Of a stretch of 39,826 bases of DNA, positions 237 to 13,453 are shown one piece after another. The stretch covers positions 1 to 39,826 of the forward strand of contig JAEUTB010000103.1 of NCBI GenBank assembly GCA_016787995.1, given 5' to 3'. Origin of the DNA: Flavobacteriales bacterium (lineage in GTDB: Bacteria > Bacteroidota > Bacteroidia > Flavobacteriales_F > PHOS-HE28). Every line of letters starts with the position of its first letter. The first letter of the stretch is position 1. Made by a program: the position numbers and the translations under genes. The notes under the pieces were generated by a model. That model was not told the DNA's origin. It was given only the letters and a program-made list of their open reading frames with translations, and made no database searches.

Positions 237-1193
237 ATGGCATTCTTCGGACTTTTCGGGAAAAAGAAGGACGAGGCCAAGGTAGCCAGCGAGAAGCAGG
301 ACCTCGACCAAGGCCTGGAACGCTCGCGTTCGGGCTTCTTCAGCAAACTCGCACGCGTGGTGGCCGGTAAGACCACCGTGGATGACGCGGTGCTCGATGA
401 CCTGGAAGAAGTGCTCGTGACCAGTGACGTGGGCGTGGAGACCACCCTGCGCATCATCCAACGGATCCAAGACCGTGTGAAACGCGACAAGTACGTGGGC
501 ACGGGGGAGCTGAACGCTATGCTCCGCGAGGAGATCGCCGCATTGATGAAGGACCCCACGCCCGTGGATCCGGCCATCAAACCCTATGTGATCATGGTGG
601 TGGGCGTGAACGGTGTGGGCAAGACGACCACCATCGGCAAGCTCGCACACGCCTTCAAGCAAGAGGGCAAGACCGTCGTGCTGGGCGCTGCGGATACCTT
701 CCGAGCCGCTGCGGTGGACCAACTCCGGATCTGGAGCGAGCGTGTGGGAGTGCCCTTGGTACAGCAAGGCATGGGTGCCGATCCTGCTGCCGTAGCTTAT
801 GATACCGTGGAGAGCGCCAAGGCCAAGCATGCCGACGTGGTCATCATCGATACCGCCGGGCGTTTGCACAACAAGGTGGGCCTCATGAACGAACTCACCA
901 AGGTGCGCAACGTGATGCGCAAGGTGATACCCGATGCGCCCCATGAGGTGTTGCTCGTGCTGGATGCCAGCACCGGGCAGAACGCCATCGAGCAGGCTCG
1001 CCAGTTCACCAAGGCAACGGATGTCACGGCCTTGGCATTGACGAAGATCGATGGCACCGCGAAGGGTGGAGTAGCCATCGGCATCAGCGACGAGTTCAGC
1101 ATCCCCATCAAATACCTCGGGGTGGGTGAGGGCATGCACCACTTGCAGCTCTTCGACAAGAAGGCCTTCGTGGAAGCGCTCTTCAAGGAGTGA
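237..1193 (+). CDS. ftsY: Signal recognition particle receptor FtsY
   Basis: This is the SRP receptor GTPase that docks ribosome-nascent chain-SRP complexes at the inner membrane. I start it at the ATG at 237 (318 residues, beginning MAFFGLFGKKK). The open frame extends upstream to 150, but that part translates the terminator hairpin. The NG domain is complete: a helical N domain at about 20-100, the G1 P-loop GVNGVGKT at 123-130, DTFRAAA at 153-159, DTAGR at 205-209 and TKIDGTAKGG at 269-278. The acidic A domain of Proteobacterial FtsY is nearly absent, as is common in Bacteroidota. The 3' end converges on the phosphatase gene at 1205 with only 11 bases between the stops. Confidence 0.97.
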   Translation: MAFFGLFGKKKDEAKVASEKQDLDQGLERSRSGFFSKLARVVAGKTTVDDAVLDDLEEVLVTSDVGVETTLRIIQRIQDRVKRDKYVGTGELNAMLREEIAALMKDPTPVDPAIKPYVIMVVGVNGVGKTTTIGKLAHAFKQEGKTVVLGAADTFRAAAVDQLRIWSERVGVPLVQQGMGADPAAVAYDTVESAKAKHADVVIIDTAGRLHNKVGLMNELTKVRNVMRKVIPDAPHEVLLVLDASTGQNAIEQARQFTKATDVTALALTKIDGTAKGGVAIGISDEFSIPIKYLGVGEGMHHLQLFDKKAFVEALFKE

Positions 1194-1204: not shown

Positions 1205-2623
1205 CTACGCGGCCTCGGCTTCTTCGACCACCGGGATCCGGTGCCAACGCGGGTCCGGCTCCACGGCCAGCATCAACATGTCGTCGATCTGTTCGCCTTC
1301 CTTGCGCCAATCGTTCAACGCTTCAACCATGCTGAGCTCGGCCTTTTCGAGCGGTGTGGCCGCATGCGTGCAGACCAGGTCCACCAAGCGCTTCAACGAG
1401 AATTTCAACCGTTGTTCGGCGTCGAACTGGTCCACCACACCATCGGTGAAGAGGTGCAGGCGGCTCGTCGATCCGAGTTCAAGGTGGATGTCCTCAAGCC
1501 CGTTCCACCCATTCATCATGGTGGGCAAGGGCCGCTGGCCACGAAGCACTGTCACGTGGGTGCCCATGGAATGGATCACCGAGCAGCCAAGACCACTGAA
1601 GTAGGCGCGCCGCTCCCGGCGGTCGAAATGCACCACCGCCATTTCTGCGCCGTCTTTCCTTCCGCTGTTATCCCGCTTCAGCAGCCGGTCGAGCGCGATC
1701 TGGGTGCGCCGGATGAGTTCACTGCCCTTGTCTATCCGGTCCTTATAGACCAACTCGTTAAGAATGCCGTGGCACAGCATGGATAGTAGCGCTCCCGGCA
1801 TGCCGTGTCCCGTGCAATCCATGATCACCAGGAATCGGTGATCGCCGTGCCCTCCACACCAGTAACTGTCGCCTCCGACCGTATCTCGCGGGCGATCGAG
1901 AACGTGTACTTTGCTGAACAGTTCGGTATGCGCACCGAGGTCCGGCAGTAAAGCGCTCTGGATCTGGCGGGCGTAGCGCAGACCGTTCAATGTGTCCGAC
2001 CGTTGGGTGCTCAATACAGTGTTGGCGGCTTCCAATTCCTGGCGTACTTCATGCAACCGCTTGCGCATACGACCCTGCACCCGTACGAATTGCAAGGCGA
2101 GGGAGAAGAGCAGCACCGTTACGCTCGCCACATTGAAGGAGAGGAACCATCGTCTGGTCTCCTGAGTGATCGCCCCTAGCGGATCGCCGAGATCGATGAC
2201 CGGGTCGAAAAGCGTGAAGGCTAGTACGATCGTTACTTCCAAGGCTACCCATCCGATCGCGATGACCCGGCTTTGGAACGTGAGCGCGCCGGCCAACGCC
2301 ACGAACGACCAGAACATGACCATGCCACTGGCCATACTGCCACCAAGTACGGCTTGGAACAGGAAGGGTAGGAGCAGACTGAAAAGGACCTGGACGCGCA
2401 TGCACCAAGCCATGCGTCCGCTTAGTCGGCATAGCGCCAGATTAAGGAGCGTGATGACCACGAACCCCAAGGGAATGGCGGCGCACCGGTATAGTCCGAA
2501 CGCTACGCACAATACGGTCCAGACAAGTGCCCCGAGACCCAAGCCCAGACAGAGCAGTTTGAACATGCTCAGCCGGATGCGCTCGTTCTGTTGCTGGATG
2601 GTCATATTCCCGGGTTGGAGCAT
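1205..2623 (-). CDS. Multi-spanning membrane PP2C/SpoIIE-type phosphatase
   Basis: The 472-residue product has about six hydrophobic spans between residues 20 and 180, a short coiled-coil linker (185-215) and a C-terminal SpoIIE-type PP2C domain. Metal-binding positions are visible: VGGD (D252), DCTGHG (D269), FTDG (D394) and the terminal IDD (446-448). The linker carries the GLRYARQIQSALLP signature typical of Bacteroidota phosphatases of this class. It lies 4 bases after siaC and shares its closing motif (DQF, KFSLKRL, DD) with the other phosphatase in the cluster. By analogy with Pseudomonas SiaA it probably removes phosphate from the SiaC protein, but this is inferred from gene order. The membrane part has no recognisable ligand domain. 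An ATG at 2605 is an alternative start. Confidence 0.85.
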   Translation of the reverse strand: MLQPGNMTIQQQNERIRLSMFKLLCLGLGLGALVWTVLCVAFGLYRCAAIPLGFVVITLLNLALCRLSGRMAWCMRVQVLFSLLLPFLFQAVLGGSMASGMVMFWSFVALAGALTFQSRVIAIGWVALEVTIVLAFTLFDPVIDLGDPLGAITQETRRWFLSFNVASVTVLLFSLALQFVRVQGRMRKRLHEVRQELEAANTVLSTQRSDTLNGLRYARQIQSALLPDLGAHTELFSKVHVLDRPRDTVGGDSYWCGGHGDHRFLVIMDCTGHGMPGALLSMLCHGILNELVYKDRIDKGSELIRRTQIALDRLLKRDNSGRKDGAEMAVVHFDRRERRAYFSGLGCSVIHSMGTHVTVLRGQRPLPTMMNGWNGLEDIHLELGSTSRLHLFTDGVVDQFDAEQRLKFSLKRLVDLVCTHAATPLEKAELSMVEALNDWRKEGEQIDDMLMLAVEPDPRWHRIPVVEEAEAA

Positions 2624-2627
2624 TTAC

Positions 2628-3005
2628 CTATTCCATTGGAAGCACGGTCAACGGTACCCCTAGCAATTCGCTGAAGGTCTCCGCGGCTTCTTGCATGAAC
2701 TCATCATCCTGCTCCACACACCACTCGATCACATACGCGTGGCCGCTGTCGATGCCTTTCTTGACCTCGTTCAAGAGCATGTAGATGGCCTTCAGCGATG
2801 AGGAGTTGAAGTAGTTCAAGCGAAAGTGGAACACCGATCCGGGCGCGGGCATCTCGCCGGCACGGAAGAGGCGTTCGATGATAGGCTGGTAGAATTCGCT
2901 GGCGTTCTCGGGTACGGAGATGCCGATGATGGAGAACCGGTTCGACGCCGGATCCGAAGTGATCGCGGGCGTGTTCTTAGTAGCCGGTATGTTCATGGCT
3001 TCCAT
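2628..3005 (-). CDS. siaC: SiaC-family (DUF1987) regulatory phosphoprotein
   Basis: A 125-residue protein matching the DUF1987/SiaC family. SiaC of Pseudomonas is the switch protein: SiaB phosphorylates it, SiaA dephosphorylates it, and the unphosphorylated form binds and activates the diguanylate cyclase SiaD. Visible signatures are FRLNYFNSSSLK at 61-72 and a C-terminal EWCVEQDDEFMQEAAE segment. The phosphosite in Pseudomonas is Thr68 in an equivalent FNTSS context (from memory); here the residue is Ser68, still phosphorylatable. I chose the ATG at 3005 because it follows the siaB stop by 2 bases; longer frames read into siaB. No GGDEF partner is present in the window, so the output target is unknown. 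Confidence 0.85.
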   Translation of the reverse strand: MEAMNIPATKNTPAITSDPASNRFSIIGISVPENASEFYQPIIERLFRAGEMPAPGSVFHFRLNYFNSSSLKAIYMLLNEVKKGIDSGHAYVIEWCVEQDDEFMQEAAETFSELLGVPLTVLPME

Positions 3006-3007
3006 GG

Positions 3008-3496
3008 TCAAGCGCGTTTGAGTGATGTGGTGACCTGACTGGTGCAGCGGAAAAGGTCGTTGCTGGCCGGCTGGATATCGGCCGTGATGCGTCGTCCACC
3101 CTTCCGGGCGATCTGCAACATGCCCAATCCGGCGCCACCTTTTTCGCCGAAGCCTTGGTTGAGCATCTGGTCCTTGAAGGCGGCGGTCAGTTGCTCCTCG
3201 TTCATCTGGCTGATGGTGCGCACACAATCAACCAGCCGCTGCGCATCGCTTTGATTGGCCGTGTTGCTGATGCTCACGATGAGCGTGTCGTCCTGGATGC
3301 GCCATTGGAAGTCCACATCGTTGCTCGCATTGTACCGCTGGGCATTGTCCAGCAATTCCAAGGCGATGCCCACGAGCTTTTTCAGATCGCTGCGTTGCCC
3401 AAGGTTGAACAGGGCGATGCAATTCAGCAGGTCAAGGAGTTGTATCCTGACCTCACTGGTCAGTTGCCCCTTGTATTCGAGCAGATTCTTGTCCAT
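3008..3496 (-). CDS. siaB: SiaB-family (DUF6272) protein kinase
   Basis: A 162-residue single-domain protein with a degenerate GHKL-type fold. The N-box-like motif ELLDNAQRYN starts at E47 with N51, and the glycine-rich lid GGAGLGM lies at 120-126. This layout is that of SiaB/DUF6272, an anti-sigma-factor-like kinase that phosphorylates SiaC. The asparagine and lid glycines needed for ATP binding are present, so it should be active. It sits 15 bases after the TPR phosphatase gene and 2 bases before siaC, so the three are almost certainly co-transcribed. It has no membrane segment and should be cytoplasmic. Confidence 0.82.
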   Translation of the reverse strand: MDKNLLEYKGQLTSEVRIQLLDLLNCIALFNLGQRSDLKKLVGIALELLDNAQRYNASNDVDFQWRIQDDTLIVSISNTANQSDAQRLVDCVRTISQMNEEQLTAAFKDQMLNQGFGEKGGAGLGMLQIARKGGRRITADIQPASNDLFRCTSQVTTSLKRA

Positions 3497-3511
3497 GGTT
3501 TCCAGATTTGA

Positions 3512-6055
3512 TCAGGCTGCGAATCGCAGGCCCATGATGAGGATATCGTCGGTCTGTGGGTTCTCGCCCTTCCAGTTCTCCAATGCGTTGATGGTGGCTT
3601 CTCGGGTGGCGAGCAGTGGGTCGTTCAGCCGTTCTTCCAACGTGGCCCGCAGGCGCTTCAAGGAGAACTTCTGACGGCCCTGTTCTCCTCCGAATTGATG
3701 CAGTACGCCATCGCTGAAAAGGAAAAGGTTGTCGCCCGGTGTCAATTTCATGTGGTGCTCCTGGTAGCCGTTCGGGCGTTCGAAATGTCCGTCTCCGAGC
3801 GGTAGCACATCACCTTTCACGCGCTCCAGTTTTTCTTCGCGCTGGATCAGAAGGGGTAGTTGTGCACCAGCGAACTGCAGGTCGCCGGACTTGAGATCGA
3901 TGCAGCACAATCCGATGTCGAATCCATCGTCGTAGCCGCTGCTGGCCTGTCGGCCACGCATGGTCTGCGCAACGTGCTCGTGAAGCATGTCCAGTATACG
4001 GCCGCAGCCAGCGTTCGGTTCTTTGGCGATCAGCTCATTGAGGCCGTAGTAGGCGATGAAGGTCATCATGGCCGCTGGTACACCATGGCCGGTGCAATCG
4101 ATGGCAGCGACGTACAACCGATCTCCGACCCGTTGCAGGTAGGGAAGGTCTCCGCTTACCGTGGCCAAGGGTCGATAGTACAGGAAGCTATCCGGGATGA
4201 TCGCTCGCAACTGGGCTTCATCGGGCACGATGGCCGATTGTATGGTCTGGGCATAGCGCAAGCTGCTCTCGATATCCTGGTTCTTGGCCTCCAATTCGGT
4301 ATTAAAGGCTTCGATCGCCCGCTTCTGCGTGATGATGGTGAGCTTCTTCTTCCGTTGCACCGACCAGGCCCACGCCATGTAGACCGCAAGGCCCAGCATG
4401 ATCATGGCGCCGAACAGGCTGTAGCGTTTCATGGTGCGCTCCGAGCTGCTTTCGAGTTCCAGGATCCTCGTCTTGGCTTCTGAAGCCTGGTTCTTCTGTT
4501 CAAGCAGCTCCACGTCACGCTGACGTTGTTGGCGCTCCATGCTCATACGATCCATGCTCATGGCTTGGAGCAACTTGGTGTTCTCAAGATCACGGATGAG
4601 TCGTTCGTTCCTTTCGGCGGATAGCGCGGCTTCTGCGAGTTGGAGTTCCTTCTGGGCGCGTTCGCGGGCCAGCATCTCTTCGCGGCGACCGCTCTCCTCG
4701 AGGTTCTTCTCCGCCAGGAGGAGCGCGAGTCGTTTTTCCTGGTTCTCGGTGGTCAATGCCAGTTCGGTCAATTCCGCCCGATGTTGCTGCTCCCGGTTCA
4801 GCCGTTCGAGGTTCTCGCGCTCTTGACGCAGGATGCGCGACCTTTCCGCAGAGGCTTCGCGGGACTGTGCTTCCCGTTGCGCCAGCAGGTTCTCGCGGTG
4901 CGTGCGCGCTGAACGCTCGAAGGACCTCGCGCTGGCCGCATCACCTTGGCGCAGGTGGATCGCGGCGATCAATTCGCACAGCAGGGCTTGTTCACGCTCA
5001 CTTTCAGCCTCCTTGGCGATGCTCAAGGCGGTCCCCGCTTGTGCAAGGGCTGCGGATGCATCGCCTTCGTACAACATCACCAGCGCGGCCGTCCGCAGTA
5101 CCATGGCTTCACCCTCTCCGTCGTCCGCGCTCCGGGTCATGTTCAATGCATCGGCGAGTTGACGTTCCGCGTAGTCGGAGTCGCCACGAAGTGCCGCGGC
5201 CACAGCGCTGTTCACCAAGGTGCTCCTGCGCAGCATGGGGGCATCGTCCAACAGGATGATGGCACGCTGATAGAGTTCCATCGATTCCGCTGCACGCGGC
5301 GTCTTGTTCAAGAGCTCGGCAAGGTTGTTCGCGGCGATACCGGCCTGAAGCGTTCGTCCGTTCTTCAAGGAGATGGCCATGACCTGTTCTTCCAGTTCAA
5401 TGGCGCGCAAAGTGGCCCCCGTCTGGGCGTGGGCCGTGGCCATCATCGCCAGTAGTTCAGCCTGAAGCGCGGCATCACCATAACGCATGACCTCGCCGAT
5501 CGAGACGTTCAAGTGTGCCAACAAGGTCGCTGCTGGTAAGGTGTGCTGCTCGGCTTCAGCCATCAATTTGATCTTCATCAGCCGTTCATGGCGCTGATGT
5601 TCGGGTATGTTCCCCGTTTCATTCAAATACTCCAGCGCCCTTTCTGGACTTCCCAGTTCAATGCTGATATCGGCCATTTCGAGCATCAGGGGGATGCGCA
5701 CCGCAGGCTGATCGACCCCGGTCACGGATACGCAACGTAGGCCTGCCATGGTGGCTCCTTCCAGATCGCCCTTTGCTCGTTGCGCACGGGTCAGTTCCAA
5801 CAGGACCGCTGGAAGTGCACCGCGGTCGTTCATCCTTTCGGCCTCGATGGTCGCCAACAGGGCATACTCCACCGAACGCGCCGATCGACCCTGGTCACGC
5901 TCCTCTTTGGATAGGGCGGAAAGAAGCTCGGCACGGCGGGCACCGGGTGCTGCGTGCAGCAGGTCCGATACGAGTTGGTCCGTGATGGGTCCCTGCCCTT
6001 GTGCGACCGCCAACGACGTGCACAGGACCAGGAGGTATGTCAGGCCGGCTTTCAT
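3512..6055 (-). CDS. TPR/coiled-coil membrane PP2C phosphatase
   Basis: The 847-residue product begins with a signal peptide (1 to about 18), followed by helical TPR-like repeats at roughly 25-380, a long Glu/Arg/Gln-rich coiled coil (about 380-540), one transmembrane segment (about 545-567) and a cytoplasmic SpoIIE-type PP2C domain (about 600-847). Metal-site residues are D636 in VSGD, D653 in DCTGHG, D782 in FSDG and the DD at 836-837. The usual aromatic pair after the first GD is replaced by LPYL, which is unusual. The topology suggests periplasmic sensing by the TPR part and output onto SiaC in the cytoplasm. Its ATG overlaps the TonB receptor stop (ATGA at 6052-6055), indicating translational coupling. 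Confidence 0.85.
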   Translation of the reverse strand: MKAGLTYLLVLCTSLAVAQGQGPITDQLVSDLLHAAPGARRAELLSALSKEERDQGRSARSVEYALLATIEAERMNDRGALPAVLLELTRAQRAKGDLEGATMAGLRCVSVTGVDQPAVRIPLMLEMADISIELGSPERALEYLNETGNIPEHQRHERLMKIKLMAEAEQHTLPAATLLAHLNVSIGEVMRYGDAALQAELLAMMATAHAQTGATLRAIELEEQVMAISLKNGRTLQAGIAANNLAELLNKTPRAAESMELYQRAIILLDDAPMLRRSTLVNSAVAAALRGDSDYAERQLADALNMTRSADDGEGEAMVLRTAALVMLYEGDASAALAQAGTALSIAKEAESEREQALLCELIAAIHLRQGDAASARSFERSARTHRENLLAQREAQSREASAERSRILRQERENLERLNREQQHRAELTELALTTENQEKRLALLLAEKNLEESGRREEMLARERAQKELQLAEAALSAERNERLIRDLENTKLLQAMSMDRMSMERQQRQRDVELLEQKNQASEAKTRILELESSSERTMKRYSLFGAMIMLGLAVYMAWAWSVQRKKKLTIITQKRAIEAFNTELEAKNQDIESSLRYAQTIQSAIVPDEAQLRAIIPDSFLYYRPLATVSGDLPYLQRVGDRLYVAAIDCTGHGVPAAMMTFIAYYGLNELIAKEPNAGCGRILDMLHEHVAQTMRGRQASSGYDDGFDIGLCCIDLKSGDLQFAGAQLPLLIQREEKLERVKGDVLPLGDGHFERPNGYQEHHMKLTPGDNLFLFSDGVLHQFGGEQGRQKFSLKRLRATLEERLNDPLLATREATINALENWKGENPQTDDILIMGLRFAA

Positions 6056-8061
6056 TGTTCGATCAACCGATAGGTGAGCTTGCCCGATAACTCACGACCG
6101 TTCAGGATCAACGGTACGGTACCGTTGTTGTAGGGGCTTACGACGTGGCGATCGACATCCAGGATGTTGTAGCACCCGAGGTCCATGGTCCAACGGCCGG
6201 TTCCGCCGGACCGCCAGGTGACGCCACCGTTGATGATGAGCTCCGATGGCCACTGGATGAGTTCCATGACCTCCTGTTCCTGATCGGTGAACTGGTACGA
6301 ACTGCGGCATTCGTTCCAGATGGCCGTGGTACGTAAGGTCCATTGCGGACCCAGCTCGACGGACAGGATGGCTGTGGCTTTTTGCCGCGGAAGCCCTTGG
6401 AGCTGATCGGCCCAGGGTTCAGGTAATTGGGTCTCTGGAAGGGAAATGTCCGCAAGGGCCCGGTGCAGACCATAACTGAATTGCATGAAGATTCGGTCGC
6501 GATCCAACGTATATCGGAGGTCCACACCTTCGGTACCGGCGCGCTCGCGATTGATGTAGTTGTCCAAGGAAACCGCATCGAACACGTACACGATGGGATC
6601 CTCGATCGAAGTTCGGTAGACGTTGGCGGTGAATTGGTCACCACCACCGATGCGCAATCCCGTCTCCACTTCCAGGGTGTTCGCATATTCCGCCTCAATG
6701 GTGCCATCCGTAGGACCATAGTTGAGGTTCATGATGGTTGGTACTTTGAAGGCCCTGCTTGCCAGTGCTTTCATGTGCCAACGCCCCGTGACTTTCGCGT
6801 AGGACGCACGCGGCGCCATGAACATGCCGGACAGGTCGTTGAGCTCGTACCGGAAACCGGCGGATAGGTCGCCCAAACGTCCGGATGACACCGCCTCTGC
6901 GAAGCACGCGATGTCGTGCATCGCTATGGTACGGGCATCGTTCATGATGAAACGTGGACCGTTGCGGACGAAGAACGTGGAGATCTGCCGGTAGCCTTGA
7001 ACACCGAGCCGGAAGTCCAACCACTTCGTAGGTCGATAGCCTGCGTGGCCCATCACACTCGTTCGAACATTCGATGTATTGGAGCCGATGCGCTGATCAT
7101 CGACAGTGTTCACGTAATACCAGGGTATCTGGTCAGCGTGCGAGAACTTCCAACCGAAATTGAAGCGTTCGCCGACCGTTCTGCGCTGTTCAAGACCCAG
7201 GATGACGTCACGCATCCGTACGCTGTATCCGCCGTCGGATACCTCGTAGTTGTCGTCCATGTAGTACACATGGGCCCGTAAGGTGCGCCAACGATATCCG
7301 AATTGGAAACAAGCGGCCTGCCCAGCCGTGCTGTCGGCCAAGTCGATGGCCCGACCATCCGGAAGCGTGTAGCTGCGGTTCGATCGTTTTCCGCGGTGGA
7401 TACTCGCCAGATAGCTCACTTCCTGCTCCAAGCCCAGTGCGTTGTTGCCGCTCACCACCACCTCGCTCTTGGCCGTGCCTTCGGCGGTGACACTCCCGAG
7501 CACGCTGACCTGACCACCAGTCGCATGGCGCGCGGTTCGGGTGATGATGTTGATCACCCCCAAGGCTGCATAGCCCCCATACAGAACGGAACCAGGGCCT
7601 GAGATCACCTCGATACGTTCCACATTGTCCAATGGAATGCGGTTGCCGATTGCATAGGTCCCGAAATCGTTCTCGTTGAGCTGCATCCCATTGAGCATGA
7701 ACAGGCATTTCCCTTCTTCCGCCCAAGTGCCATGGATCGCGATCCCGATGACGTCGTCCACATCGCGACCGAAGGTTATTCCAGGCACCAGTTGCAGCGC
7801 TTCGAGCAAGTTGCGGGCACCGCTGGCTTTGATCTGTTCAGCGCTGAGCACGGTGATGCTCACCGGAGCTTTTCGCACGTCCGTTTCCCCCAAAGCGGAC
7901 AGGTCCGCACGAACCACCTTGCGTTCATTATCCAACGCTTGGTCCAGCAGTTCCTCCCCATCGTTGGCGATGAGGCGTTGAGGTTCCGTGAGCGGTTGAG
8001 CCACCGCCTTGAAGCCAAGAAGAATAAAGAGGAGTAATGCAGACCTTCCCATGCCTAACAC
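6052..8061 (-). CDS. TonB-dependent outer-membrane receptor
   Basis: The 669-residue product has a signal peptide (cleavage near VAQ at 20-22), a short N-terminal stretch, a plug domain (about 60-175, with APVSITVLSAEQI, VPGITFGRD and VEVISGPGSVLYG-like motifs) and a beta barrel to the end. There is no carboxypeptidase-like N-terminal domain and no SusD partner nearby, so it is closer to CirA/FepA-like receptors than to SusC. The substrate cannot be told from sequence. The chain ends LTYRLIEQ, without the usual terminal aromatic residue of a barrel. It lies 84 bases after the histidine kinase and overlaps the phosphatase start by 4 bases, so it may supply or sense a ligand for that signalling cluster. 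Confidence 0.88.
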   Translation of the reverse strand: MLGMGRSALLLFILLGFKAVAQPLTEPQRLIANDGEELLDQALDNERKVVRADLSALGETDVRKAPVSITVLSAEQIKASGARNLLEALQLVPGITFGRDVDDVIGIAIHGTWAEEGKCLFMLNGMQLNENDFGTYAIGNRIPLDNVERIEVISGPGSVLYGGYAALGVINIITRTARHATGGQVSVLGSVTAEGTAKSEVVVSGNNALGLEQEVSYLASIHRGKRSNRSYTLPDGRAIDLADSTAGQAACFQFGYRWRTLRAHVYYMDDNYEVSDGGYSVRMRDVILGLEQRRTVGERFNFGWKFSHADQIPWYYVNTVDDQRIGSNTSNVRTSVMGHAGYRPTKWLDFRLGVQGYRQISTFFVRNGPRFIMNDARTIAMHDIACFAEAVSSGRLGDLSAGFRYELNDLSGMFMAPRASYAKVTGRWHMKALASRAFKVPTIMNLNYGPTDGTIEAEYANTLEVETGLRIGGGDQFTANVYRTSIEDPIVYVFDAVSLDNYINRERAGTEGVDLRYTLDRDRIFMQFSYGLHRALADISLPETQLPEPWADQLQGLPRQKATAILSVELGPQWTLRTTAIWNECRSSYQFTDQEQEVMELIQWPSELIINGGVTWRSGGTGRWTMDLGCYNILDVDRHVVSPYNNGTVPLILNGRELSGKLTYRLIEQ

Positions 8062-8145
8062 ACTTGCCCCGTAGGGCGTCTTCGTTCAACCAGATAGCCG
8101 GGAGAGGCTGCTCGGGACCTTGTATCGTGCGGGCGTGGGCCAGGG

Positions 8146-11100
8146 TTACGTCCGGGACGTAGGAGAAGGAATGGTGCGCTCCAAAGGCAGGTGTATCCGC
8201 ACTTGGGTCCCTTCAGCATCGCTGATCAAGGTGATGCGACCGCCTAATTGACGCATACACTCGGCGATGATGACGAAGCCAAGGCCGGTGGCCGGGCCTC
8301 GACGTTCCGCGTCATCCAATTGGGAAACGCCTTGCAATTCCCCTTCGAGCCGGGCGATGACGGCAGGCGGGATGCCAATACCGTTGTCCGCGATGGTGAG
8401 GATGTACCCATCCGATCCGAACTCTTCGGAGATGGTCACTTTGGAGGCGTGCGCATGGGCATGCACGTTCATAAGCGCATTGTGAACGACGATGCGAAGG
8501 AGGTCGGCATCGGTGCGCACCGTGGATGTCTGAGCGACTTCGTTCATGGCAACGATGCCAGCTCGTTCGAGCATTTCCTGTACCCGGAAGAGCACTCCTT
8601 CGGCGATATCGCGCACCACCACCGTACGGATATCAGGCCCGAAGCGTTTGCTGCGTGTTCTTATCCAGGTGAGGAGGCTCTCCGCATTGCTGTGCAGTTT
8701 GGTCGTACTGGCGCTCAGGTCAGCCAATGTTTCCGCCAGGTCGTTGCCGGGCCGCCCTTCGCGTAGGAGGACCTCCGCACTGTGCGCCACGCGGGCCACG
8801 AAGCGGAGGGGGGGGACCACATCATGCGAGATCACGGAGATGAGCTTCTCCTGATGGGCCAATGCGTTCATGAGTTCCTTGTTCGCGTGCAGCAGCGCTT
8901 CGGTCTGGTCCGCCACGTTCTCTTCCAACCACTTGTTCCGTTTCCTCAAGCGCACCGTGTTCAGCTTAGCACCGCCCCAAAGAAGTGCACCAAAGAGCGT
9001 GGCGCCGAGGATGAAAGCGGGCCAGGTGGCCCAGAAGGGTCTTCGGACGCGGAACCAGTACGTGGTCTCCGGTTCGATGCCACGGGCAACGGACCCCACC
9101 TTCCTGATGTAGACCGCGTAGTCACCGGATGGAGGTCGGACCAACTTCACGGTGCGCTCTCCGGTCGGTATCAATCGCCATTCATCGACCAATCCTGGAA
9201 CCAGGAACTCGAATTGAGCGTTCTCCGGATCGCCCCAGTAGGGTACCGAGAAGTCGAACTCGATATCCTCCACATCATGTTCGATGATCAGGTAGTCATT
9301 CTCTCGCCATTGCTTGCCATTCACACGCACATAACCATGGATCAGGCCCAGTTCGGGGAACGGGTCCGGGATCGATCCGGGGAAGAACCGCACCAGACCC
9401 TCGATGGTGGGGTAGGACACTGAACCGTCCGGAAGTGCGATGTACGCTGGGTCGCAGCCTCCGTTGAATTCCAAGTTGACCATACCTGTCGCGGATCCGA
9501 AACGGGCCAAATACGGCCGTTGGGCTTTATCCTTGAGGTAGGTCCGTACATCCGCCATGGTCGTGTGGATCAGTCCGCGGTTGGTACTGATCCAAAGGAT
9601 ACCGTCACGCAGGAGAAAGCTGTGCGCGTAGTCCAAACAGTTCAACGGGTCGTTGGGTAGCCGTATCGCTGAATCTCCCTGTACCAAGTACCAGCCGTTG
9701 CCATAGGTGCCCACCAACAACAGATCTTCCACTTGGGAGATGGCCCTCACATCCATATCCTTCAGGCCATTCACGGGTCGGAAGGTCGAATGGTCCGATG
9801 AGCCGATGTAGAGCCCACGGTCGCAGCCGTAAAGAAGGGTGCCTTCCGGGCTTACCGAGAGGACCGATGGCCAGTCTTGATAGCCCTGCACGGGTAGGCG
9901 TACCAGGTCCCGGAAGCGACCCGAACGCCATACCTTGATATGACCAGCCAGGCTAACGAGGATGGAATCGCCGTGAGGTTTCATCGCCACACCGCGCTCC
10001 ACTCGCGGTAGAACGATCTCTTCCACAGCGGTGATCGGGTCGTAGCGGATCATTTGAGTATCACGCCAGGCCCAGATCTTCCCTTCATGGTCCTTCGGAA
10101 GGTAGAAGTTGTCCACGTTGGAAAGGCTCTCCAATCGCTTGCAGCCTGTGGTCGACTTCTGATAAGCTTGGCGGTCCGCGGTGAAGATGACACTGCCGTC
10201 GGGGGTGAGCGCTTGCGCGAAGACCGAGGATCGTGTGATCACGTGGCCTTCGCACACGGAGCGGCTCAGCATTTCGGCACGTAGCACGTGCAGGCCCGTG
10301 GTGGAAGTGCCCACGAGGATCGTACGTGCCCCGGGGATCTCCAGAACGTCGGTGATCGTGTGGGCTGGGGGAATACCCGTCGAAATGGTCTCGGCCACAA
10401 GTCCATTATCGACCGGGTCCGAACGAAGCACGATGAGCTGTTGATCGAACACCATATGTGCAACGGGATGGCCCTGATGCCAGAAGACAATGGGCCATGG
10501 TGTGCCGTCCGGTATGGGATCCCCCTTCACCCTGACCGGCACAGCCGCACCGGTTTTCGGATCCAGGGAGTGGACCGTGCCGGACTCATCCGTTCCGAAG
10601 GCCGAGCCTGCTACAACGAATATCCTGTCCATCCGTACTGAAAGAGGGACCTGTCCCACTCGTGTGGTGTCGTGCCAGAGCCAACAGCTATCCTGTCCGA
10701 TGATCACCATGTCCTGTGCGCTCGTGGCGAAACAGGCTTTGCGCCGGTGCGGTTGATCCGTGAACGCCTGCTTTGGTCGGCTTAACCTAGCGTAGAGCTC
10801 CACCGATGGCAAACCTCCGGTCATCTGGAAATTCTGGTGATCGGAGTGGATCATCACGGGTGCGATATGTCCATGGATATCATACCCGTTCCCGTTGGCA
10901 TCTTCTACGATGACCTCGCCCAGTGCCGTCGTCAGGATGTTGCGGATACGTTTGGCGGTCAACGCACCACGCCCCTTCAACTCGAATGTCCGAAGTGCGC
11001 CACCATCATAACGGACCAAGCCGCCTTCCGTGGCGATCCATACATAGCCTGCGGTATCCAACTCCATGTGTACCACACTGTTCTGTGGTAGGCCATTGTT

Positions 11101-11214
11101 CGAGTTGAAGTGCCGCCAAACCCTGTATTCCTGAGCCTGTGCAAGGTGCAAGGAGGCACCAAGTAGCATGGCCAGCAACGCGAGGCTCAGTCCAAGGGGC
11201 TCGCTCTTGCTCAT
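8146..11214 (-). CDS. Propeller-domain sensor histidine kinase
   Basis: The 1022-residue protein starts with a signal peptide (1 to about 27). It continues with a periplasmic beta-propeller region carrying two-component-propeller motifs such as NNGLPQNSV and GYVWIATEGGLVRYDG, then a Y_Y_Y-like Ig domain (about 640-720), a transmembrane segment (about 729-749), a coiled coil and a histidine kinase core. The likely phospho-accepting residue is H797 in ISHDVVPPLRF. ATPase boxes are HNALMN (N912, N916), DNGIGIP (943-949) and GPATGLGF (973-980). There is no fused receiver or AraC domain, so it is a classical kinase, not a hybrid. An 8-G run at 8808-8815 encodes the VVPPL turn and leaves the frame intact. 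The start overlaps the response regulator stop by 4 bases. Confidence 0.92.
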   Translation of the reverse strand: MSKSEPLGLSLALLAMLLGASLHLAQAQEYRVWRHFNSNNGLPQNSVVHMELDTAGYVWIATEGGLVRYDGGALRTFELKGRGALTAKRIRNILTTALGEVIVEDANGNGYDIHGHIAPVMIHSDHQNFQMTGGLPSVELYARLSRPKQAFTDQPHRRKACFATSAQDMVIIGQDSCWLWHDTTRVGQVPLSVRMDRIFVVAGSAFGTDESGTVHSLDPKTGAAVPVRVKGDPIPDGTPWPIVFWHQGHPVAHMVFDQQLIVLRSDPVDNGLVAETISTGIPPAHTITDVLEIPGARTILVGTSTTGLHVLRAEMLSRSVCEGHVITRSSVFAQALTPDGSVIFTADRQAYQKSTTGCKRLESLSNVDNFYLPKDHEGKIWAWRDTQMIRYDPITAVEEIVLPRVERGVAMKPHGDSILVSLAGHIKVWRSGRFRDLVRLPVQGYQDWPSVLSVSPEGTLLYGCDRGLYIGSSDHSTFRPVNGLKDMDVRAISQVEDLLLVGTYGNGWYLVQGDSAIRLPNDPLNCLDYAHSFLLRDGILWISTNRGLIHTTMADVRTYLKDKAQRPYLARFGSATGMVNLEFNGGCDPAYIALPDGSVSYPTIEGLVRFFPGSIPDPFPELGLIHGYVRVNGKQWRENDYLIIEHDVEDIEFDFSVPYWGDPENAQFEFLVPGLVDEWRLIPTGERTVKLVRPPSGDYAVYIRKVGSVARGIEPETTYWFRVRRPFWATWPAFILGATLFGALLWGGAKLNTVRLRKRNKWLEENVADQTEALLHANKELMNALAHQEKLISVISHDVVPPLRFVARVAHSAEVLLREGRPGNDLAETLADLSASTTKLHSNAESLLTWIRTRSKRFGPDIRTVVVRDIAEGVLFRVQEMLERAGIVAMNEVAQTSTVRTDADLLRIVVHNALMNVHAHAHASKVTISEEFGSDGYILTIADNGIGIPPAVIARLEGELQGVSQLDDAERRGPATGLGFVIIAECMRQLGGRITLISDAEGTQVRIHLPLERTIPSPTSRT

Positions 11215-11864
11215 GTCCTTCGGTAGCCGTGTGCGTTCACCAGGGTTTGCAACTCCAAGGCGTTCTGAACGTCCAGTTTCTCGAAGAGTCGAGCCTTGTA
11301 CGTCGCAGCCGTACTGATGCCGATGCCCATACGTTGCGAAATCTCCTTCACACCAAGGCCGGCCAGGATATGGTCCAGGACGAGCAATTCCTGTTTCGAC
11401 AACCGCTCGAAGGGTGATCGTTCATGTGTCCCCCCGCGATCCAAGCTCTGCATCTCCAGCCCATGCCCGATATAGACCTTGCCATCAAGCACGTGGCGGA
11501 TAGCCTTGATCACTTCGTCTTCCGGCGCTTCCTTGTTCAGGTATCCAGCGCAGCCTAGGGCGATCACCCGTTGTGCGTACAGCCGTTCAGGGTTCATGGA
11601 GTAGACCAGGATGCGCATACCCGGGTAGGCTCTTCGGATATCCTCGATGTGCTCCATGGCGTTACCATCGGATAGTTGCAGGTCGAGGATGAGCAAGGTG
11701 GGGGGACCTTCGACGGAAAGCAAAGCCAGCAGCCCGCGGATGGTGGCCACATCGTGCACCACCAGATAGGGCAGCTTCAGCGTGATCAAGTTCCTGAGGC
11801 CTCGACGGATGATCACGTGATCATCGAGGATCAGGATACGTGCGTAAGGGGTGTGTGGGCTCAT
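11211..11864 (-). CDS. NarL/FixJ-type response regulator
   Basis: A 217-residue protein with an N-terminal receiver (D14, D15, phospho-acceptor D61 in LLILDLQLSDG, S89, K111) and a C-terminal LuxR-type helix-turn-helix (about 150-212, with LSKQELLVLDHILAG and GIGISTAATYKARLFEKL). It should bind DNA when phosphorylated by the kinase encoded next. It is the first gene of the minus-strand block and its stop overlaps the kinase start (ATGA). Targets cannot be seen; the downstream TonB/Sia genes are natural candidates. The 5' leader contains a small GC-rich hairpin at 11890-11903. Confidence 0.92.
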   Translation of the reverse strand: MSPHTPYARILILDDHVIIRRGLRNLITLKLPYLVVHDVATIRGLLALLSVEGPPTLLILDLQLSDGNAMEHIEDIRRAYPGMRILVYSMNPERLYAQRVIALGCAGYLNKEAPEDEVIKAIRHVLDGKVYIGHGLEMQSLDRGGTHERSPFERLSKQELLVLDHILAGLGVKEISQRMGIGISTAATYKARLFEKLDVQNALELQTLVNAHGYRRT

Positions 11865-12139: not shown

Positions 12140-13453
12140 ATGAAAGTCCGCACGCTCAGGCCTACGAAGGTCAACGTTGTCACGCTCGGTTGTTCGAAGA
12201 ACACCTTCGATAGTGAGGTGATGATGGCTCAGCTCAAGGCCAATGGCATCGCTGTGGACCATGAATCCGATTCCGGGGAACACAACGTGGTGGTGATCAA
12301 CACCTGCGGCTTCATCGACAATGCCAAGCAGGAGAGCATCGATACCATCCTGAGCTATGCGAAGGCCAAGGATCAAGGCTTGGTGGAGAAGGTGTATGTG
12401 ACGGGCTGCCTCAGCCAGCGTTATGCCCCTGAGTTGAAGGATGGCATCCCCCAAGTGGACGCCTGGTTCGGCACCCGTGATCTGCCCAGGCTCCTGAAGA
12501 CCCTAAAGGCCGATTACAAGAAGGAATTGGTCGGTGAGCGGCTCTTGACCACACCGGCCCACTATGCCTATTTCAAGATCAGTGAAGGGTGTGACCGTAA
12601 ATGCAGCTTCTGCGCCATACCGCTGATGCGCGGCAAGCATGTGAGCACACCGATGGACCAGCTGGTGACCAATGCCCAGAACTTGGCCCGCCAAGGTGTG
12701 AAGGAACTCATCCTTATCGCACAGGACTTGACCTATTACGGGCTTGATGTCTACAAGAAGCGCAACCTCGATGAGCTCGTTGCACGCCTGAGTGATGTGG
12801 AAGGGATCGATTGGATCCGCCTTCACTATGCGTTCCCAAGTGGCTTCCCCATGGAGGTCCTTGATGTGATGCGGGATCGGTCCAACGTGTGCAACTACCT
12901 CGATATGCCCTTGCAACATGGCAGCACCGGAATGCTGAAACGGATGCGACGCGGCATCACGCAGGAGAAGACCGAGGCCCTGGTGGCCACCATCCGCGAT
13001 AAGGTACCTGGCATCGCCATCCGCACCACGCTCATCGCGGGCTTCCCCGGTGAAACACAGGCCGACCATGATGACAGTTTGCGGTGGATCGAAAGGATGC
13101 GTTTCGATAGGCTGGGTGCATTCACGTACAGCCATGAGGAGGACACCCATGCACATACCATGGAGGATGATGTGCCCGAAGCCGTGAAGCAGGAACGCGC
13201 GCAGGAGATCATGGAGCTGCAAGGTGGCATCAGCCTTGAACTCAACCAGGCCAAAGTGGGCAAGACCTACAAGGTGTTGGTGGATAAGGCCGAGAACGGC
13301 CATTGGATCGCCCGCACCGAATTCGATTCACCCGAGGTGGACAACGAAGTGCTCATCCCTTTGAGCACGGATGTGCACCTGCGCATAGGGGACTTCGCCA
13401 CCGTGCGGATCACCGAAGCGAACGAACACGACCTGCGCGCCGTGGTGGCTTAG
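12140..13453 (+). CDS. rimO: Ribosomal protein S12 methylthiotransferase RimO
   Basis: A 437-residue radical-SAM enzyme that methylthiolates the conserved aspartate of ribosomal protein S12. The N-terminal MTTase domain has the three cluster cysteines C18, C56 and C90. The radical-SAM motif CDRKCSFC gives C151, C155 and C158. A C-terminal TRAM domain follows from about 370. The LGCSKNTFDSE opening and the LMRGKHVS segment after the cluster separate RimO from MiaB. Length is typical. The stop overlaps the stop of the convergent haem-binding gene by 4 bases. Confidence 0.96.
   Translation: MKVRTLRPTKVNVVTLGCSKNTFDSEVMMAQLKANGIAVDHESDSGEHNVVVINTCGFIDNAKQESIDTILSYAKAKDQGLVEKVYVTGCLSQRYAPELKDGIPQVDAWFGTRDLPRLLKTLKADYKKELVGERLLTTPAHYAYFKISEGCDRKCSFCAIPLMRGKHVSTPMDQLVTNAQNLARQGVKELILIAQDLTYYGLDVYKKRNLDELVARLSDVEGIDWIRLHYAFPSGFPMEVLDVMRDRSNVCNYLDMPLQHGSTGMLKRMRRGITQEKTEALVATIRDKVPGIAIRTTLIAGFPGETQADHDDSLRWIERMRFDRLGAFTYSHEEDTHAHTMEDDVPEAVKQERAQEIMELQGGISLELNQAKVGKTYKVLVDKAENGHWIARTEFDSPEVDNEVLIPLSTDVHLRIGDFATVRITEANEHDLRAVVA

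Follow-up and report, generated by a model that had tools for sequence, protein, structure and literature searches.

A TonB-dependent receptor paired with a SiaA-like phosphatase, SiaB and SiaC in Bacteroidota: a putative partner switch in genomes without diguanylate cyclase genes

A TonB-dependent outer-membrane receptor (TBDT), a TPR-PP2C phosphatase, a SiaB-family kinase and a SiaC-family phosphoprotein are encoded side by side in the window, the whole 39.8 kb stretch of DNA analysed here, which is the first part of contig C129 in an assembly of 3.3 Mb that is 74% complete. Together they probably work as a Ser/Thr partner switch of the SiaABC type that has the TBDT as its input in the outer membrane and acts on a target other than a diguanylate cyclase. 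In Pseudomonas the known SiaABC serves the synthesis of c-di-GMP; here the input at the surface and the output both appear to differ from it. If true, this dedicated coupling of a TBDT to a switch based on a Ser/Thr phosphatase would add a new surface-to-cytoplasm route. More tentatively, it may represent a previously undescribed Bacteroidota signalling class, in which a dedicated TBDT clade acts through a periplasmic TPR domain upon PP2C, SiaB and SiaC, with an effector that is not c-di-GMP and is perhaps the control of surface adhesins or of secretion.

The locus between ftsY and rimO

Seven genes on the minus strand (11864-1205) lie between ftsY (240..1193, plus strand) and rimO (12140..13453, plus strand), the flanks of a variable site that are conserved in relatives. 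An earlier note had described seven minus-strand genes with overlaps or short gaps, and both the open reading frame (ORF) list and the Pfam domains bear this out. The first two encode a NarL/LuxR-type response regulator (RR; 11211..11864, minus strand; PF00072 and PF00196 (GerE), receiver Asp motif LILDL) and a periplasmic two-component-propeller histidine kinase (HK; 8146..11214, minus strand; PF07494 (Reg_prop) and PF02518 (HATPase), phospho-His motif SHDVVPP kept). These are followed by the TBDT (6052..8061, minus strand, GTG start; plug PF07715 at 74 bits, barrel PF00593 at 67 bits), the TPR-PP2C (3512..6055, minus strand; TPR and PF07228 (SpoIIE)), SiaB (DUF6272; 3008..3496, minus strand; PF19788 at 60 bits, 6kko_A at 3e-8) and SiaC (DUF1987; 2628..3005, minus strand; PF09345 at 101 bits against a cut-off of 24.5, 6kko_C at 6e-13). 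The last gene encodes a second phosphatase, a protein of about six TM segments with a SiaA-like PP2C domain (6TM-PP2C; 1205..2623, minus strand; PF07228 (SpoIIE), 6k4e SiaA at 6e-30). The SiaC ORF is listed at 199 aa and begins within SiaB; the true start is likely the ATG at 3005, which gives 125 aa.

In gene order from RR to 6TM-PP2C the spacing is -4, 84, -4, 15, 2 and 4 bp. There are ATGA overlaps at RR/HK and at TBDT/TPR-PP2C, the latter being the 4-base coupling of receptor and phosphatase that had been claimed. The genes of the locus may be co-transcribed. The widest gap, the 84 bp between HK and TBDT, could contain a promoter, which counts against the reading preferred here; an intergenic scan of the locus for promoters and terminators gave signals at chance level only.

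The seven genes are a core of TBDT, TPR-PP2C, SiaB and SiaC with two optional pieces, RR-HK and 6TM-PP2C, since some relatives (Flavobacteriales/Bacteroidetes MAGs) have RR-HK-SiaB-SiaC only, with neither TBDT nor TPR-PP2C (L021, L028, L030, L039, L041), and others have TBDT-PP2C-SiaB-SiaC with no adjoining RR-HK (L009-L013, L015). RR-HK is directly upstream of the TBDT in the window, L007 and L008, and HK is missing from most relatives containing the TBDT. SiaB-SiaC is present without the TBDT in 7 relatives. In L188, L190 and L191 rimO and ftsY are close together with no module gene between them, while in G060 and G067 (L185, L187) a 6TM-PP2C homologue stands alone between the two. The order TBDT/TPR-PP2C/SiaB/SiaC, the conservation of which had been set as a check, does recur in relatives and is not therefore due to chance. 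A seven-gene pathway acting as a single unit was rejected, as RR-HK and 6TM-PP2C have been gained or lost independently of the core at this site. Of the surface-ligand-to-SiaC pathway proposed in the earlier note, what stands is a TBDT tied to a SiaABC-type switch whose output is not a diguanylate cyclase, given the clade dedicated to TPR-PP2C and the lack of GGDEF genes in the genus, but not one pathway of seven genes.

SiaC is present in every genome of the genus first sampled, in 2 to 5 copies, with three in the window's own genome. SiaB of the window type (43-75% identity) is found in 18 of the 45 genus genomes and is accompanied by TBDT and TPR-PP2C in 11 of these 18, own genome included; in G005, one of the 11, the module genes are on two contig ends. 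In G014 a reading frame that resembles TPR-PP2C begins after the TBDT and is cut off by the contig end, hence a count of 11-12 of the 45. Wherever the DNA is readable, no genome of the genus has TBDT or TPR-PP2C without the other, and on a weakly resolved rimO tree the TBDT state must have changed at least 4 times. At the same loci the TBDTs are less alike (34-63% identity) than the SiaB proteins (57-75%), as would be expected if the receptor diversifies faster. In L007 (8621-9056; G016) an in-frame TAA interrupts TPR-PP2C in an otherwise intact module, which may reflect a pseudogene or a sequence error.

A TBDT clade dedicated to TPR-PP2C

A TBDT profile scan of 85,000 species genomes and 395 class genomes, together with the genus loci, gave 119 TBDTs for a tree. 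Those followed by TPR-PP2C group in a single clade, whether or not SiaB/SiaC accompany them (21 rows, SH-aLRT 99), and a second tree separates a clade of 20 rows from 29 others (bootstrap 100/SH-aLRT 99). TPR-PP2C is immediately downstream of the TBDT in 20/20 checked clade members, with a gap of -37 to +23 bp; among these it is split into two genes in L052 and L067, stop-interrupted in L007 and inside an over-long ORF in L010. The single clade member with no visible PP2C, L080, stops at its contig end. SiaB and/or SiaC are near the TBDT in 18 clade members, and there is no SiaB/SiaC within the fetched DNA of clade members L072 and L078. None of the 19 readable control TBDTs, drawn from five genomes that belong to the module's genus or to family f41, has an adjacent PP2C, SiaB or SiaC.

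The core module recurs in distant Bacteroidota loci, where the TBDT is 23-28% identical. TPR-PP2C and SiaB are fused into a single chain beside the TBDT in L055, L076 and L084, the Pfam domains confirming this in L055 and L084, and a PP2C is fused to SiaB in L052. Most of the distant loci also carry, upstream of a SiaC gene, a further PP2C whose sensory part is large, which makes two phosphatases per module another recurring feature. Very large propeller-PP2C proteins are encoded upstream of SiaC in L052 (420-6494), with PAS and GAF domains, and in L084 (1-7698).

A phylum-wide search with the clade profile matched seven other genomes, and no TPR-PP2C adjoins their TBDTs in the fetched neighbourhoods. 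Outside the clade, the Raineya-type loci L104, L109 and L113 (Raineya, uncultured Cytophagales) carry a TBDT of another branch beside TPR-PP2C, without SiaB/SiaC, possibly a second origin of the pairing.

Sister TBDT groups adjoin YfiR (DUF4154), often also HK-REC. In L129, L135, L137, L149 and L152 related TBDTs are followed by YfiR/DUF4154, in some cases with a hybrid histidine kinase. These TBDT-YfiR-histidine kinase loci resemble the module in their related TBDT subfamily and in the 4-bp overlap that the receptor often has with a small signalling gene, but the module's partner is TPR-PP2C/SiaBC rather than YfiR and the two are on separate branches of the TBDT tree. In G337 (L129) YfiR is present and a GGDEF gene is absent, so that the output of YfiR there cannot be the Pseudomonas one.

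TonB receptors are known to signal via sigma/anti-sigma pairs, FecA-FecR-FecI being TonB-dependent transducers. The module shares with that system an outer-membrane TonB receptor as the proposed signal input across the periplasm, but has no STN domain and no adjacent anti-sigma/sigma pair, its partner being a PP2C. Pfam gives plug and barrel only for the window TBDT, the closest solved structure to which is the colicin I receptor, and an STN-type (FecA) transducer was rejected for want of the STN domain.

Conserved residues, proposed signal route and alternatives

The SiaC acceptor, the SiaB N- and G-boxes and the metal-binding Asp residues of a SiaA-like PP2C are all found, which supports membership in the SiaABC partner switch. 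The Asp/Gly metal residues of SiaA are kept in every module PP2C, with equivalents of D457, D474, D600 and D653 in both window PP2Cs. The third-metal Asp604 is His, a change common to the genus TPR-PP2Cs that counts against the reading preferred here; the window 6TM-PP2C has Glu at 534. SiaB keeps the N-box ELLDNAQRYN, with the catalytic Glu, and the G-box GGAGLG. The acceptor of SiaC (Thr68 column) is S/T in 57 of 57 sequences and is Ser in the window, as throughout the window SiaC lineage except L043. A second SiaC lineage of the genus also has Ser as its acceptor, the remaining copies keeping Thr. The NCBIfam equivalog cut-offs are not reached (SiaA 141-165 of 700 bits, SiaB 47 of 225, SiaC 64 of 150).

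An AlphaFold2 model of TPR-PP2C (mean pLDDT 81) has a TPR solenoid, a long helix bearing the single TM (about 548-566) and a PP2C domain, with relative domain placement unsure given the pTM of 0.48. The nearest solved structure to this PP2C domain is SiaA-PP2C (6k4e, TMt 0.86-0.88). A signal peptide and a coiled coil are also recognised, and from the hydrophobic N-terminus and the one TM, as judged by hydropathy, the TPR half is predicted to be periplasmic and the PP2C cytoplasmic.

In P. aeruginosa, SiaB phosphorylates SiaC at Thr68 and SiaA removes the phosphate (PMC7647112); in its unphosphorylated form SiaC binds and activates the diguanylate cyclase SiaD (PMC8457831). In the reading proposed here, the TBDT would bind a surface ligand and, by touching the TPR solenoid or by delivering a ligand to it, would affect this periplasmic part of TPR-PP2C, an inner-membrane protein; since the TBDT has no STN signalling domain, the contact stays a proposal. 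This input would alter the activity of TPR-PP2C towards its probable substrate, phospho-SiaC (Ser at the Thr68 position), an action opposed by SiaB, and unphosphorylated SiaC may then bind a target of a kind other than a diguanylate cyclase. A second phosphatase input could come from the 6TM-PP2C, which like the RR-HK pair is an optional addition. Like SiaABCD of P. aeruginosa, the module encodes a PP2C, a SiaB kinase and SiaC together, with conserved catalytic residues and a Ser/Thr acceptor. It differs in its TBDT and periplasmic TPR input, two phosphatases, Ser acceptor, matches below the NCBIfam equivalog cut-offs and a genus in which no GGDEF protein was found. RsbU/SpoIIE switches share the PP2C phosphatase, GHKL-type kinase and phosphoprotein logic, but the module's substrate is SiaC-type (DUF1987) and its kinase SiaB-type. 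In the open-access library searched, the one paper that names DUF1987 concerns P. aeruginosa, and neither a TBDT-PP2C pairing nor SiaC partner switching in Bacteroidota was found.

TBDTs in Bacteroidota are often regulated by neighbouring genes, and the receptor might instead be an ordinary nutrient receptor that the adjacent two-component system or the switch regulates, and not a sensor. In the window, L007 and L008 the TBDT has RR-HK immediately upstream, which would suit this, but it is an unlikely account, as TPR-PP2C accompanies the TBDT where RR-HK is missing (L009-L013, L015) and does so in distant families as well, and the control TBDTs have no PP2C neighbours.

That the rimO-ftsY interval is an insertion hotspot stacking unrelated signalling genes, so that adjacency means little functionally, is improbable. 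The interval is indeed empty, PP2C-only, RR-HK-SiaBC or TBDT-PP2C-SiaBC depending on the relative, but the TBDT/TPR-PP2C/SiaBC order recurs in distant Bacteroidota, with fusions between the parts, and the explanation is applicable to RR-HK and 6TM-PP2C only. A reversed switch, with SiaC or the phosphatase as the gate on the TBDT or on its TonB complex and with transport as the output, would provide the target that SiaC needs in a genome without GGDEF, and no other gene neighbours TPR-PP2C as constantly as the TBDT does. Against this, SiaC is cytosolic and the TBDT is in the outer membrane, and the predicted topology puts the TPR half in the periplasm and the catalytic domain in the cytosol, which makes a reversed switch the least probable of the three. 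A partner switch with the TBDT as its input is the reading retained here.

Absence of GGDEF genes and candidate outputs

The absence of a visible GGDEF gene, remarked upon earlier, extends beyond the window: none is present in the window's own assembly, in 44 genus genomes (30 nearly complete) or in 17 further genomes of the class that carry SiaC; this search does find GGDEF in 8 of 14 named control genomes. To the extent that the assemblies are complete, a SiaD-type output is therefore excluded there, and a GGDEF gene hidden elsewhere in the genome was rejected on the same grounds. With dozens of SiaC-bearing genomes lacking a diguanylate cyclase, the sharp question is what SiaC controls in Bacteroidota. 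DUF1987 proteins have been suggested to modulate neighbouring proteins generally (PMC8457831), which fits the module without naming a target here.

In six relatives, large related surface-type proteins are encoded directly downstream of SiaC on the same strand, where the window has the 6TM-PP2C (L008, 1-6657; L010, 3-5387; L012, 12860-19000; L013, 3-4748; L015, 8035-10485; L011, 12599-14227). Among those scanned there are a T9SS tail, HYR or adhesin-like repeats, and these proteins are a candidate output at the gene level only.
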